Below, piece by piece: positions 1 through 59,173 of a DNA stretch of 64,000 nucleotides (the first letter of the stretch is position 1; every line of letters begins with the position of its first letter). The notes under the pieces are model-generated. The model was not told the DNA's origin and made no database searches. It saw only the letters and a program-made list of their open reading frames with translations. The translations under genes and the position numbers were made by a program. Source of the DNA: Caenorhabditis elegans (taxonomy: Eukaryota; Nematoda; Chromadorea; Rhabditida; Rhabditidae). The DNA lies in contig NC_003284.9 of NCBI RefSeq assembly GCF_000002985.6, positions 11,718,001 to 11,782,000 of the forward strand, written 5' to 3'.

Positions 1-3000
1 AAAAAGCACAACATATGAAACTAAAAATCGAAGCGGATGTTGGAAAAAAACAACGTTTTCATTAATAATTAATAATGTCAAAAATAAATTTTCGTTATAT
101 TTTAAAAAGTGATACACCCCCGAAAAGTCTCGTAATTTTTCATTAACCAATACTCTTCTCCCTTTTCCCATCCCAATCGAATATTTATTACAAGGAACGG
201 GGGAAACGCCTATACGCCCCCCGAAATACCCAAGGAATTTGTTTGAATTTCTTGGTAAACGTTAGATGGTTTAGGGGTTGTGTGAGTCACAAGGCCTTTT
301 CAATTTAGGCGATCAAAAACTAGATTCTTATTAGGCGCTATCATTCACAAAATTTTGACGGCGATTGAAGATATTTGATATAGTGTTGAAAGTGAAATGT
401 TCAGGTACTTTTGCTTGAATTCCAAAAAAATGATAAATTGTAGGAACGGGTGTTTAGACAAACGGCGTTAATGTTATGATTTATTATGATACCAAATTGA
501 CAAATATTAGCAAAATCAGACTTAAAAATAAATATCTTCTATCACAATAGAACCAAGCTCAACTTAACTCAGTAACATCACACGAACTTCAAGAGATTTT
601 CCTTACTGTAATACATATTTCATTCTTCCAAAATGGTTACGATATAATATAACATTACAAGAACATTCAATAAGAGAAAATATTAATCAACTCCGAAGTA
701 TCATTGCAAAGATGTTTCAAAAACAATAATGGGTCAAATCAACTTAGAGATTTTTTCACAGTTTTCACGCGTTGACTTCAAAATAAATTCTTGTGCAAAA
801 AAAAAAGAAAAACTTGAGAAAAATGAATGCAGGAAGAAATAGAAGTGTAAGGACAAACAAATCAGTAGGAGGGAAACTAAGAAATAGAGGGAGGAAAGAA
901 AAATGTTTTATTTGGAAGGTAAGGGGATGAAAACTGTGAGCGCCCAAGCCGACTGGCATAAGTGCGTAGGTGATTCTTTTTGCCGAGTGGAGCAAACATG
1001 AAACAACTTTTTGTCTCTATCTATTTTCTTTTTTCTCTGCTCCCCTTCTTACAGGTATTTCTCTTTCCCTCTCCCATTGCGCAGTTTTTGTCTCCTGAGC
1101 CAATCAACTCAAATGCACTAAAGAGCATAGTTACGAGAAGAAAAATGTGTGTTTGTACCACGGTGGCCACGCGGGGATTATCTAATTTCTTACATGCACA
1201 AGGACTAGGTGTTTGTGTAGTTGGTTACCAACTTGTAAGAAATTGAAAGTTGATAAAAATAAATTGCCCTAAGGTTTATAGCAATATTTAGAAACAAGTA
1301 AGAACGTAAACCAAGTAAAAAATCATCCGCAAAAATCTAAACTCGACATTTAATGGCAGATGTATGTGAACTTTGATAGGAACTTCAAGAAACTGAAAAA
1401 ATTAAACAAAAAAGATGTCACTTTTTGGATGGTTCCAGTCGTTTTTTCCACAATTTAAAAAAATTTCTGAGCTGCCCGATGTAGTTGAATTTCATATTTA
1501 TTTGATAGTCTTTTATGCAGCTGGGCCTCCCTTTTTGAAAGAAGTTTAAAACTATCAGTTAAAGTTAATATGTAATAGAATTCTGACATGTTCCTTTGTT
1601 TTTGGACAAAGGCCAGTATTGTGTAAAAGTAACTAATTGGACTCGTCGTGGCCTGAATTAAAAACTAATTGAAACTAGTTCTGTTTGTGAACTATACTTC
1701 CGTTTTTTGTTTGTTCAAAATTTAAAAATTCATCCATTGTCGATCATGATACTGTGAAATAATAAAATAGGTAGAATAATCGAATTTGAGATAGGTGTGA
1801 AGTCACGAATTTTCTTATTTTGTGAAACAAAAATTTCCTCTATTAGTCCTGCATGCAAAACTATTTTCAATTTGTTCGCAGGAGAGAAACTTTTAAGTTA
1901 TTAGAGACTGCCAGGCTATGTTTGAATGTCCCATTATTCGAAAAAAGTTCATATTCTAAAACATGAAAAAAATCATTAAACTTTACCGTTTTTGCCAATG
2001 CGCATGCTTACAATTAAATTTATGCGGTATTAACATGAAAGTCATACATTGAAAACACAAACATTATTACCATCTATGAAAACGACAAAACTAAAAGTGG
2101 AACAAATAGTTTTCAAAATGATTTGATTTGGAACCGAGGTCGATGGTTAATGGTTTTGCCAGCCCTTCCATCACTTCCATCCGTCTCTCACCACAATATG
2201 TCGAGGACACGTTGAGTTAATGAAAAAAGCGCCGAGAACCAGTCCTGCGTGAGGGGGTATGGCGCCGTGAAAAAACAATAGCCATTTGTAAATGGCTGAT
2301 GATCAAAACGGGGACAGAAATGGCAGTGAAATGAAAATTTCTTTTCGTTGTTTCAAATGGTGGACAAGGTCGGCGCCGTAAATTATATGTTTTTTGTTTG
2401 TCTCTGTTGATAAGCTGATTGTAATATGTACACATATATCAATCTAGCGCCAAGGCTGTTTATTAACTGAAAGTGAAGCGCGAAGAGTTGTTTTAAAGCT
2501 GAGTCAATCGAGAAAAAAACTAATGTTAAAACAAAGTGAGGATCAATCGTGGAATATCAGTTTTAAAATCATGATATTATTTATTTCAGAATTCTTTAGT
2601 TAAAAACCAGGTTAAAAATACTGATACTTGTGTATTTCACGTCCTCATTTCGATGATGGTTTTTCACACATAAATTATCATTTACCGCGGCCGAACGTTA
2701 AAAAGACTTCTCTCTAAAAAATTATATTTATTATTTTTTAACGTGAAATGGTGATAAGTTTCGTTCTCATTTTTGAGGTTAATCACTTTTTTTTCAATTT
2801 TCTTTTTGATCTGTTTATATAATAATGTAGAAAAGATAGGAAGTTCCAAAACATCTCTGGAACAAAAAAATTTTCTAAAGAATCCCAATGAAACGTTCAA
2901 GAAATAATGAGACGGAGAAAAATAATTCTGAGAAGTAGAAAGTGTACTTGTAGCATCGAGAAAATGATTGAAATTTTTTTTAATGAATGAAAAACGTAAT

Positions 3001-3972
3001 CAAACTCGTCAAAACAATTATTGAAAAAGATCACTGTGCTCAAGTAAAAAAGTCATTTTGAAAATGAGGGCATGTAATACACAAGTACCACAATACCCAA
3101 ACAGTTAAACCGTGTTTTTTGTGTTTTATTTATATTATCATGTTTCATTAATAAGTATTGTAGTTTATAATAATTTGACGCGGACCAAACTTGTCAAACT
3201 GTTGAATTTTGGTTAACATTTGGTAGAACCGTAATTTTAAGAAGTAAAGCTCATTTTGGTCATTTTCAAACACACTAAAACAAATGTCACTTTGTTTTCA
3301 ATGTATTATATTAGTGTTGCTTTTACTTTTGAATACGCAAAATAGAAACTATCGCACCAATTTCAAAAGACCAAGGCGCTGCACTAACAGAGAATATACG
3401 GTAGATAAATTTTTGAAATGTTTTCAAACAAAATAATTCAATCATTGCAGATTATTTGAAAGGGGACCAAGGTTTGTAGATTTTATTTGACAGCCTGGTT
3501 CGCAACAACAGAATTTCATAATGAAATTTCTCAGAATATGTATTTTTAGAAATTTTGAGGAAAAACGTACAGAATTAGGCTTAAACCTAAATATTTTCTA
3601 ACTGATGATTAAAACAATTCACCTGTTCATCATTTTTATTTGACTATTCATTTGACAAAATTTCACCAAGTATCATCGTCGAACTTCATTTACTTTTTTT
3701 GGAAACTGGGTTTCCATTTTTATACAAGTTGAACTATTTATTAATTGTATGATTATCACAGTGTAAGTAGAAAGAATGAGCAAAAGCAAGGACACCAATA
3801 ACAAATAAATTAGCAACTAATATTGTTTAAAATAAAATAGTGAACATAATAGGAACCCGTTCTAAAGAGCCTGTCTTAATTTGAAGTAAGTGTAACAAAA
3901 TCTGTGTTAACAAATAAAAAGATCGATTTGTAATAATGGTACAGAGAAAAAGATGAAAAAATAGGGCTGAAT
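1..3972. other. AT-rich intergenic stretch, no gene seen
   Basis: Short open frames occur on both strands (for example 980-1246 plus, 2217-2435 minus, 2682-2900 minus), but none has a recognisable domain, good codon choice or a splice chain. The only structured piece is a MITE-like end near 3372-3414. A short inverted repeat (AGCCATTT/AAATGGCT) sits at about 2280-2299. Confidence 0.5.
3372..3414 (+). repeat. Solo end of the TACCGTAT-type MITE
   Basis: The text GAGAATATACGGTA preceded by a GGCGCTGCACTAACA stretch closely resembles the right end of the complete element at 18482-18919. No matching left end is visible nearby, so this looks like a deleted or solo terminus. Confidence 0.5.
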
Positions 3973-39830: not shown

Positions 39831-39914
39831 TAGCACGAGTGGGGTTCGAACCCACGAGGTGTTATCCACCATTGGAACTTAAGTCCAACGCCTTAACCAC
39901 TCGGCCATCGTGCT
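39831..39914 (-). tRNA. tRNA-Leu (anticodon UAA)
   Basis: Read on the minus strand it folds fully: acceptor AGCACGA pairs with TCGTGCT, then TG, a D arm with GAGTGGTTAAGGC, an anticodon stem TTGGA/TCCAA with loop CTTAAGT (anticodon TAA), a long variable arm typical of class II tRNAs, and a T arm GTGGG-TTCGAAC-CCCAC. The discriminator base is A, the leucine identity base. There is no intron. CCA is not encoded. A six-T terminator follows at once. Confidence 0.95.
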
Positions 39915-55782: not shown

Positions 55783-55935
55783 CTACTCGGTAGTTGGCTC
55801 CTCCTGGGGCGCGCAGGGGGTCGACTGGCGCGCGAAAAGAGGTGAAATGCGCCTGGCGCGAGGATAGGGCGTGACTGGAGTGCGGAACAGACGCGCTCGG
55901 ATTGTGAAAAGAGTATTCTGAAACTGCCAAAGTGT
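55783..55935 (+). repeat. Left terminal inverted repeat
   Basis: A GC-rich arm, inverted relative to 59013-59173. Best match over the outer 60 bp; further in, both arms share GCGCTCGG- and GCGCGC-type words but diverge. Confidence 0.7.
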
Positions 55936-56266
55936 CTACATAAGATGTATTAATCAATTTCTTGCGAACATATTATTGCTTTGAGACATATTTTCACACA
56001 AAAGTGAATTTTGTTCGTTCTATACTCTAATTGTAAACGTTTTGCAGCCATGCTATTTACTGAAAAACCAAAACTTCAATTTAAATTCTTATATGAGGTT
56101 AGAAGAGAACAATATGGTTCATCTTACAAGGAAATTGTATTAAAATCTATCAATAATCGTACTGTTATCTAATGATGTTACGTTTTAAAATATGTTCATT
56201 TTACCTATGCAGATAAAGTTAAGGGGCCTCAAATATATCAAGAATTACAATTAGTCGGAAGTCGTT

Positions 56267-56393
56267 TCAACACCATTCATCAAGTCCTGGTTCTGCTACT
56301 TGACCGTTACACAACGTATATCGCGATGTCTTGAGAATGTCTCCATTAGGAAACTCGCAGCATTGGCATTGTGGAGGCACGATGCACACATCC
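56267..56393 (-). pseudogene. Cysteine-rich terminal exon-like block inside the element
   Basis: On the minus strand a TTTCTTAG acceptor leads into [18 protein letters not shown], continues to GLDEWC and a stop. Six cysteines in 41 residues and balanced composition suggest a secreted-protein exon. No upstream partner exon and no family are recognised. It is probably a third captured host piece. Confidence 0.4.
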
Positions 56394-56607
56394 CTAAGAA
56401 AGTTGCCCCTAAATGCCAGGTTTATTTTCCAATAGAAAGATATAAAAGATATGTGTAGTTTGTGTGAACATCTTCAAACTAATTTTCTGGATCACATGTC
56501 TCGTTGTTGTATTTTATACGTTTAGTATTGTGACACCATATTACTGAAAGCTGAAAGAGACTAGATTGGCAATTATTATATATCAACTACATCATTCATA
56601 CATATGT

Positions 56608-56610
<3 letters not shown>

Positions 56611-56664
<54 letters not shown>
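56611..56664. repeat. (AT)27 microsatellite
   Basis: Fifty-four bp of uninterrupted AT dinucleotides inside the element. Confidence 0.95.
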
Positions 56665-56666
<2 letters not shown>

Positions 56667-57187
56667 ACCTGTTTTGGAAATGAGGCTGTCTGAAAGTAAC
56701 AGGTTCGCGAAGAGAAACTGTTTTTGCACGCCGTCCGCGTTCTGACCGCGCCCCATCCGCGCCCATTCCGCACTCCTTCCGCACCCCTTCCGCGCCCCGT
56801 CCGCGCAACACGAACGACAATCCGTTATTACGCTTGCAGTTTATAATTTTACCACGCGGGCAGCGTTTCGAAATAAATATTTTATTTTGTGATTTATTTT
56901 TCGACTATTTTCGCGAGTTTTTGTGCGATTTTTGCAATCTTTTCTCGATTTTCTGTTAGAATAACGTTGAAATACGTTATTTTCGCATATTTTGGTTAAT
57001 ATCGACCATTATTTTCATGAAAAATACGGAAAAATGGGAGAATTCAAGTGATTCCGCAGTTTATGTTAGCAATTGCTGTTGAATGATTAAAAATTACATT
57101 TTACTCTTTTAATTTTGTTTATTCTCTAAAGCAGACCGCTTCAATTCACTCTCTTCCTGTATTAATAATCACTAAATTCGTTTTCAG

Positions 57188-57407
57188 AGATGGTAATTGA
57201 AGAAAGGGTGGAAATGCTTGGCTTGCGACGTGTTGGATGGATCTTCACAGATTGTTGGACAGCTTATAGTGCTGAAGAAACTGTACATTATACAAAGCAC
57301 AAGGTGAGAACAATCTAGAAGAGAAGCCCAAAAAACGAATAATTTTTCAGGATTCCTTCTTCCTATCAGCTGAGGAGTGCATCACCGCAGCAATGCTTCA
57401 AAATTAA
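57188..57407 (+). pseudogene. NPL4 fragment, first part
   Basis: Two exon pieces, 57188-57303 and 57351-57407, join across a normal 47-bp intron and read RVGWIFTD ... HYTKHK then DSFFLSAEECITAAMLQN, the MPN-like core of NPL4 ([20 protein letters not shown]). A TAA replaces the glutamine or lysine codon expected after LQN. The rest of this segment is deleted and shifted in frame before the piece resumes at about 57441. The kept intron shows DNA-level copying rather than retrotransposition. Confidence 0.8.
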
Positions 57408-57434
57408 CATCCAAGTACTCGATGGATCGTCACT

Positions 57435-58077
57435 ATGGATCCAAAATTGGCTTATGTTCGAGAAACACCATTATCCGAAGAAAATTATATAACTGATGTT
57501 CAATTTTCGATGAAAAATGAGTATGGAGCCGAGGTTATGAAGCACGGACGACCACTTCCAGTTGAATATTTGCTGGTGGATGTTCCTGCCGGAATGCCAA
57601 AAGAGCCTCACTACACGTTCCACGTTGGCACATCTAATAAATCGAAGAGTGCCAAATTTAATGTTGAAAATCGACAAGCAATTGGACAACTTCAAGGATG
57701 TGCAAATTTGATTCAATACTCATCCGAACCTCGAATGGTTGCACCGCCGGCGGCTCCATTGCCGAAAAAGAAGAAGTATGCGGATAAATGTATTCACCCA
57801 AAGGTTTTTATTTATTCTTTTGTCGGAAATTTAAATTTTTAATTTTCAGATTTGCAATCTCGAGCCAGACGCAGAAAACTACATGGCAATCCTGGCCGAA
57901 GCTTTGAAACGCCCGAGTAAAGCCAAGAAGCGTCTTCGAATTTACATTTCACACACTTTTATCGAAGAGAGGCAACCGGAGCAGGATACCGATGAAGCTT
58001 CTCTTCCGATGTGGGAACTTCGTGTCGAAGGACGACTTCTCGATGAGCAGCCTGCGGCTCCTGCTATTCCAGAGTGA
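57435..58077 (+). CDS. Chimeric NPL4-BAF60 open frame (198 residues)
   Basis: Exons 57435-57803 and 57850-58077 join in phase. Residues 3-98 match the C-terminal half of NPL4 ([36 protein letters not shown]). From about residue 99 the sequence becomes the region before the SWIB domain of BAF60/SMARCD ([47 protein letters not shown]) and stops. A short loop is lost inside the BAF60 part (around [11 protein letters not shown]), and the SWIB domain is missing. The start ATG is created by the frame shift in the NPL4 part (TATGGATCC). In C. elegans the likely parents are npl-4 and swsn-2 genes on autosomes (from memory). Whether it is expressed is unknown; treat it as a chimeric pseudogene with coding potential. 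Confidence 0.7.
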
Positions 58078-58097
58078 ATAGAATGAGATTAATGGAA

Positions 58098-58505
58098 GTG
58101 ATTTATGGAATGATATTCAAACTCTTGATCAAAAGTGTTATGATATTATCGAACAGATCAACGAACTGAAGGCTCGCCGCGATTTCTACGCAAGATTCTA
58201 CACCGAGCCCGCAGAATTCATCAAAAGCTGGGTGATGAGCCAGAATTCGGACCTGAAGACTATGAACGAGCTGAGCGGGGATCTTGAAGCCGAAAGATTC
58301 GCTGGATCCTACGTGAGACCTGAAACAGAGGAAGGAGTTCAAAGGTATTAATGTTTTTCGGGGGTTCTAGAAATTAAAAAGTTTTTTTTTCAGATACATG
58401 TTCCAAAAGGTGAACCAGAAGCGACATGAATTGGAGCAAATCTTGGTGTTCGATCAAATTAAGGCTCCATTGCCAAAAAAGAAGAAGTATGTGGACTCAA
58501 AACAG
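58098..58505 (+). pseudogene. BAF60 (SWSN-2-like) C-terminal fragment
   Basis: Pieces 58098-58345 and 58395-58505, split by a normal intron, read YDIIEQINELKARRDF, FIKSWVMSQNSDLKTMNELS and QRYMFQKVNQKRHELEQIL, the C terminus of BAF60 proteins. They lie directly behind the stop of the chimeric frame; the whole SWIB-domain part between them is missing. At the end the true C terminus is replaced by a second copy of APLPKKKKY, followed by a donor. No start codon of its own. Confidence 0.8.
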
Positions 58506-59012
58506 GTAAAGAAAAAACAAATTATTGCTAAAGAAAACCAGTTAGTAAAACAATGTAAAATATTAAACGAATAACAAAATGACATATAGGAAACCATGAA
58601 ATGATAACTTTGAATTAAATTAAGTAACAAAAAATTGATGAGACTATTTTTGAGCTTTGAAGATGCGAAGCTACATATTTGCAAATACGTAGCTTTTGAT
58701 CAAAACATTTTTGAAGCAATAGGTTGCTCTAGTTGCCGTTTCACGGGCATAATTGTGTAAGTCTATTTTTAAAGATATTTCATTGATTTTTTCAATATAC
58801 TGACTTAATTAAATAGATTAATTTGAGCTTTTCAGAGAGGATGATGATCAGCACCACCAGTCTCCCGCCGTCTACGGATCAATTGGCCTGCAGCCAAGCT
58901 GTCTTCAATCTGTTTTATTTATTTTTTAAATTGTTTTTCCATTGTTCGTTGTTGTAATAAACGCAATTCTTATTAATCTAAGATTTCAATTTTAATATGA
59001 AAATCGGCGGGA

Positions 59013-59173
59013 GCGAGAAAAAAAATCGAACCGGGCGCGTAGTGTGAGCGAAAGAAATGCGCTCGGCGCGCGAAAATTGTGCGACTAGATCGCGAGACAG
59101 TAGTCTAGTCGCGCCCCGTCCGCGCGCCAGTCGCACCCTCAACGCGCGCCAAGCGAGCCAAACTACCGAGTAG
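59013..59173 (-). repeat. Right terminal inverted repeat
   Basis: A GC-rich arm ending AAACTACCGAGTAG, the counterpart of the left arm. Confidence 0.7.

Follow-up and report, generated by a model that had tools for sequence, protein, structure and literature searches.

A probable Pack-TIR-type transposon of Caenorhabditis elegans with pieces of npl-4 and a BAF60 gene, and sister copies with other host DNA

Gene-carrying inverted-repeat transposons and an element on chromosome X

Gene capture by inverted-repeat DNA transposons is already published for Caenorhabditis elegans (Turmoil-1) and for other animals. The portion of Tan et al. (2021; PMC8277862) available to us reports 370 animal Pack-TIRs, elements with host DNA between terminal inverted repeat (TIR) ends; four are from the worm, one of them beside rpb-4. 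Here, we analyzed a 64-kb stretch of C. elegans chromosome X (C6:11718001-11782000, the window, whose numbering we use) against a genome of 7 contigs and 100.29 Mb. At 55786-59170, the window holds an element, copy A, with inverted terminal repeats, GC-rich arms, and a TA outside either end, and within it lie pieces of npl-4 and of a gene for BAF60. An earlier note, made from the letters of the window alone, had proposed that a non-autonomous DNA transposon took up host DNA here. The analysis supports this, and we consider it very probable that A is a non-autonomous TIR DNA transposon of the Pack-TIR type.

In the same partial text, Pack-TIRs are alike in holding host DNA between TIR ends, in template switching at microhomologies, and in multicopy spread by transposition. 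Their multicopy families are described there from frogs, an alligator, and a fly, whereas the separate loads of this one small worm family number at least three, two of which occur in multiple copies; one copy described below may be among the four worm Pack-TIRs. Turmoil-1, according to the accessible part of Sela et al. (2008; PMC2572040), is likewise a C. elegans DNA transposon, with pieces of rsp-2 and cpg-3. However, it belongs to the Harbinger superfamily and encodes a transposase itself, and its 205- and 131-base pieces lie inside long inverted repeats, while the cargo here is central, longer, and from more genes, and no transposase was found. With Turmoil-1 and four worm Pack-TIRs in print, the view that this mode of capture is little described in nematodes needs qualifying. 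Plant Pack-MULEs and Pack-CACTA elements, as presented in the part of PMC8903248 at hand, are also non-autonomous and TIR-bounded, contain fragments of genes, and are easily taken for genes; Pack-CACTA elements have a 5-base target duplication, against 2 bases here, and a Mutator-like (MULE) domain had no match in this genome. In Drosophila, Ssk-FB4 (PMC8277862, in the text available) is similar in being non-autonomous, with repetitive arms, an unknown transposase, and a captured gene in several copies, but its duplications are 9 to 10 bases, against 2 here, and its arms measure about 700 bases. The present case would add one small transposon family, in the best-studied nematode, that took up and multiplied several host genes, so that mechanisms of capture can be tested in a laboratory animal.

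Captured host DNA, target sites, and probable movement with cargo

The npl-4 piece of A (57209-57728; features are on the plus strand unless stated) matched two near-identical donor loci (C2:5623617-5624271 and C2:5632079-5632733) at 92 to 97% identity, and Pfam NPL4 was found in it (E = 2.4e-25). It adjoins BAF60 piece 1 (57729-58072), which is followed by pieces 2 and 3 (58072-58462, joined by a short filler near 58101-58108) and by a repeat copy of a 32-base BAF60 piece (58464-58495), a backward jump in the donor. The BAF60 donor is C1:4211185-4212512, on a contig separate from that of npl-4; the long pieces match it at 80 and 93% and the short pieces at 94 to 97%. Since neither of the two BAF60 peptides of A had a Pfam match, this part of the cargo is named from its DNA identity with the donor, a locus with a SWIB domain and with matches to solved SMARCD chains. 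We take this donor to be swsn-2.1.

Both parts of the cargo contain introns, as the earlier note had said. The npl-4 intron (57304-57350) differs from the donor at 1 of 47 bases; the BAF60 introns at 57804-57849 and 58345-58393 are kept, and the one compared with the donor is kept yet diverged. Comparison with the donors also bore out the internal deletions: about 120 bases are gone from npl-4, near 57445, and about 51 (piece 1, by eye), 372, and 174 bases from BAF60 (the last two in pieces 2 and 3), the 372-base stretch having held most of the SWIB domain. That some donor stretches are absent could also result if spliced mRNA had been retrocopied into a transposon. By our reading, though, the missing npl-4 and BAF60 stretches are exonic, and the introns of both are there; we give a retrocopy origin a negligible probability overall, and for npl-4 and BAF60 it is refuted.

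By eye, the load junctions have 0 to 5 shared bases, the filler between the BAF60 pieces resembles nearby donor sequence, and the miro-1 load has one jump between two EF-hand repeats. We infer a template-switching step from this pattern, which is of the kind left by switching in replication or gap repair.

We searched the genome for the ends and arms of A. A 28-base left-end pattern with at most 2 mismatches had 45 sites (reversed control, 0), and a shorter one with at most 3 mismatches had 87 (reversed control, 5). Five two-ended copies have these arms: A (C6:11.774 Mb), V (C5:11394190-11396321), X2 (C6:7756408-7759377), I (C1:3552324-3557692), and IV (C4:9402405-9405601). The earlier note had counted an absence of other genomic copies as grounds against its proposal and had suggested looking for an autonomous relative; at least four other two-ended copies turned up and the relative did not. 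Its further ground was adjacency of the two gene pieces outside any repeat in related species; in the present genome, the npl-4 and BAF60 donors are on separate contigs, C2 and C1. Extra DNA lies between the left and right modules in five of five. V keeps the later BAF60 pieces along with 26 to 31 bases at the edge of npl-4, and it has lost three stretches present in A. The loads of X2 and I (1,433 and 1,664 bases) match miro-1 (C4:4713045-4715587) at about 95.5 to 98%, and the load of IV (882 bases) matches C4:991840-992767 at 86%.

Next, we compared the copies that have a load in common. The npl-4 edge and three BAF60 junctions are common to A and V, and at 26 variable sites of one BAF60 block, 20 differences from the donor were common to both (1 private to A, 5 private to V). 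Among 54 variable sites in three miro blocks, 43 were common to X2 and I, with 5 and 6 private; junctions within the loads were likewise common to the members of each pair. In contrast, the flanks of A, V, X2, and I, compared over 500 bases, had no similarity between loci, the only flank matches being within one locus (24 bases in V and a 102-base inverted repeat in I). Because junctions and derived sites are in common while flanks are unrelated, the npl-4/BAF60 load and the miro-1 load each appear to have been captured once and then moved.

These comparisons bear on a model in which each locus was loaded in place, by transposition-independent gap filling within inserted elements, the main model for single-copy cases in the accessible text of PMC8277862. 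Template-switch-like junctions fit it, as does the zinc-finger cargo of IV, which matches only its putative source among the matches listed. However, since the A/V pair and the miro pair have capture junctions and derived sites in common at unlinked loci, their loads would have moved after capture, and we regard in-place loading as unlikely. Ordinary segmental duplication or rearrangement could also have joined npl-4 and BAF60 pieces, with inverted repeats inserted nearby by chance. Partial and chimeric duplications occur in worms, and the donors are ordinary host loci; moreover, PMC4827821, in the portion seen, accounts for miro-2 and miro-3 as recent gene duplications. Against this, copies with either type of cargo terminate at the TIRs, next to a 2-base duplication and in flanking DNA that is unrelated between loci, and within 200 kb of the npl-4, BAF60, and miro-1 donors, there was no arm match and none of the 87 left-end-like sites. 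We therefore hold segmental duplication to be very improbable. For npl-4, BAF60, and miro-1, the interior is of host origin and has parental copies elsewhere without a flanking element.

The earlier note had called for a target-site duplication to be sought, and we found one of 2 bases, TA at the window element (55784-55785 and 59171-59172, strandless). The left copy was delimited by a filled/empty comparison together with flank counts and the right copy by flank counts. The comparison came from a relative of about 1.33 kb that lies within another copy's right arm (L048, C1:3109500-3115000, about 2098-3431): the empty site reads TGCGAC-TA-GATCGCG and the filled site TGCGAC-TA-[CTCGG...CCGAG]-TA-GATCGCG. 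For the counts, 18 of 19 copies with both ends readable had an identical dinucleotide outside both ends (12 TA, 2 CA, 2 GA, 1 TG, and 1 TT; the exception, L060, has TA/TG). Shuffling the right ends reached 18 matches in 0 of 200,000 trials (mean, 8.8), many of the 19 copies being interrelated rather than independent families. Because the two sides would match as inverted repeats in only 12 of 19, the dinucleotide does not belong to the TIR. The base before it was C in 13 of 19 copies and the base after it G in 12 of 19 (two right ends were misplaced, both non-G either way); with the same two misplaced ends, no exact 8-base duplication was found in the 19.

Helitrons capture genes, make no target duplication, and lack terminal inverted repeats. 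A flank test at another boundary showed no duplication, as rolling-circle (Helitron-like) capture would predict, but the inverted termini at both ends and the 2-base duplication make such capture extremely unlikely. MULE elements duplicate 9 to 10 target bases, Harbinger elements usually 3, and Tc1/mariner elements insert strictly at TA. We rejected MULE membership because of the 2-base duplication and because the MULE transposase model PF10551 had no match in the genome; the model does match in 3 of 14 control genomes.

What points to the Pack-TIR type is that the copies are bounded by TIRs, that the target duplication is of 2 bases, that the host DNA inside contains introns, and that capture junctions are common to copies with unrelated flanks. 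The marks of Pack-TIRs seen here are TIRs at both ends, a target duplication, a host interior, no transposase of its own found, and multiple copies after capture. Under this explanation, npl-4 and BAF60 genomic DNA would have been copied in between the two modules when replication or gap repair switched templates. A transposase made elsewhere would act on the TIRs, and perhaps on the GC-rich arms, and would have carried the loaded element to further sites, most of them TA; internal deletions may afterwards have trimmed the copies.

Several points weigh against this explanation. The movement after capture is read from sequence and was not itself observed. The empty site of the L048 pair is the window element, a related copy and not an insert-free version of that locus. 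Of the 18 identical dinucleotide pairs, 6 differ from TA, at odds with the strict TA rule of Tc1/mariner. Two interior stretches, 56851-57208 (unique in the genome at the DNA level) and 58496-58736 (common to A and V only), had no source in the genome DNA comparison. PF10551, with its 0 genome matches, was the only transposase family searched (CMC, Harbinger, and Tc1/mariner were not), and neither an autonomous relative nor a transposase was found in the frames read.

miro-2, miro-3, and the right module as a possible last exon

According to the part of PMC4827821 available, miro-1 is K08F11.5, miro-2 is C47C12.4, and miro-3 is Y47G6A.27; miro-2 and miro-3 are more than 90% identical to miro-1, with deletions, are probably recent duplicates, and may be non-functional. 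That they are unlikely to be functional is the published view in the portions seen of PMC4827821 and PMC11012113, and deletion strains of both exist (PMC5997755 and PMC10369933, likewise seen in part). We matched primers printed in the accessible text of PMC5997755 against six sequences. The miro-2 primers TT193 and TT194 matched X2 only, 1482 bases apart as printed, and the miro-3 primer TT195 matched I only, with TT196 on I 935 bases away as printed; TT196 also matched X2 and miro-1. Because the published primers match at the printed spacing, X2 is the annotated miro-2 and I the annotated miro-3.

TT193 falls in the transposon right module. In both X2 and I, the Miro frame departs from miro-1 after ...AAIVALAG and ends in a transposon-encoded LQHQSLAV and a stop, and the predicted C-terminus of miro-2 and miro-3 is transposon sequence. 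A transposon origin fits the published doubt about their function and would supply a mechanism for it; primers and RNA interference (RNAi) for these genes are best re-read in view of their location in a transposon. The word start "transpos" is absent from the main text, as available, of PMC4827821, PMC10369933, and PMC11012113, and "transposon" and "transposable" are absent from that of PMC5997755. In a literature search, the sequence names C47C12.4 and Y47G6A.27 led to PMC4827821 only, and no paper linking miro-2 or miro-3 to a transposon was found from titles and abstract starts, most subscription journals lying outside the search.

The right module (58737-59170) has a splice-acceptor-like site before 58836, a stop codon, and AATAAA at 58956-58961. 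AATAAA is present in the right module of all five two-ended copies, and the splice-acceptor-like site in three of five (A, V, and, slightly changed, IV). With its stop and poly(A) signal, the module would offer a possible ready-made last exon, to which captured exons could be joined by splicing or by simple read-through. X2 and I enter the right module past the splice-acceptor-like site, so the Miro frame simply reads on. In A, an ATG at 57190 is in frame into the npl-4 piece, whose frame has a TAA stop at 57405-57407 (counted by eye). Downstream of that stop, a predicted two-exon frame of 198 amino acids (57435-57803 and 57850-58077, plus strand, from an ATG at 57435; exon borders by our reading) crosses the NPL4/BAF60 fusion in frame and ends at 58077. 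A wider proposal, which we put forward only tentatively and think somewhat doubtful, is that this is a specialized nematode family given to repeated gene capture, with the right end as a portable last exon. Each load would then be transcribed as a chimeric gene, three products being miro-2, miro-3, and the fusion of NPL4 with BAF60, and the ends would belong to a transposase group with a 2-base target that leans to TA without being strict, often C-TA-G.

With regard to the miro copies, we also observed that a different kind of inverted repeat (102 bases, 84%) encloses I, inside which a repetitive element is nested. Another miro-1-like piece (C4:8393675-8393984, about 310 bases, 92%) has no end-like site listed nearby.

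Element structure, frames, and family remains

The inverted repeats of A (55783-55821 and 59135-59173) are 39 nucleotides (nt) long and 74% complementary, and the outer 11 nt match perfectly. They lie at the positions given earlier, with one correction: the exact termini, CTCGG...CCGAG at 55786 and 59170, are 3 bases further in, and the TA duplication falls outside them. The left TIR and GC-rich arm span 55786-55892 (65% GC over the first 110 nt from 55783). They belong to the left module (55786-56850), which is found whole or in part in V, X2, I, and IV; it measures about 1,040 to 1,070 bases in A and is partly deleted in V and IV. Inside it are an AT microsatellite (56611-56664) and a GC-rich inner block (56726-56817), built of 11-base units and opposite in orientation to the outer arm. 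The right module, about 320 to 440 bases across copies, contains the right GC-rich arm and the inverted repeat at 59135-59170. Part of this arm (59058-59135) is a hairpin resembling short palindromic repeats across the genome (about 67 bases, 78 to 84%).

As the earlier note had reported, we recognized no transposase frame in A: its longest stop-to-stop frame (144 codons) is cargo, and the 8 searched of its 34 listed non-cargo frames had no Pfam match, nor did one sister-copy frame or one short peptide, joined by hand, from a 1.3-kb relative. By eye, no transposase was recognized in the frames of L057 (a relative of about 1.3 kb) or in the DNA inward from the ends L055, L058, and L051; the L051 stretch has a reverse-transcriptase-like frame and looks like another element. 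Related elements of about 1.3 kb have the terminal 80 or so bases in common with the family, and their right ends have diverged.

A CCCH zinc finger in the load of IV was weak in a contiguous frame and stronger in a peptide partly joined by hand. Its source, C4:991840-992767, is presumably lep-2, the worm makorin; a paper listing calls lep-2 a Makorin and gives no position. A left-end-like site with 3 mismatches (C4:996049) lies 3.3 kb from this source, by chance or through a link to capture. Another match of IV (C4:5961865-5962301, 69 to 80%) was considered as a further donor and dropped; a left-end-like site in fitting orientation (C4:5963996) lies 1.7 kb away and makes it more likely that the locus is an older, diverged related element with interior sequence in common with IV.

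Right-arm remains were found at C1:3.112, C3:4.026, and C1:12.114 Mb, and a lone left end at C4:10.071 Mb adjoins frames that, by eye, resemble those of ordinary genes. A comparison limited to the other loci analyzed here revealed no cargo upstream of the remains at C3:4.026 and C1:12.11 Mb; the former has one 76% match over 200 bases, about 2.5 kb beyond the second match to npl-4 (L053:5211-5405). Elsewhere in the window, a tRNA-Leu (TAA) at 39831-39914 on the minus strand was the sole match to Rfam (gathering threshold) or ARAGORN.

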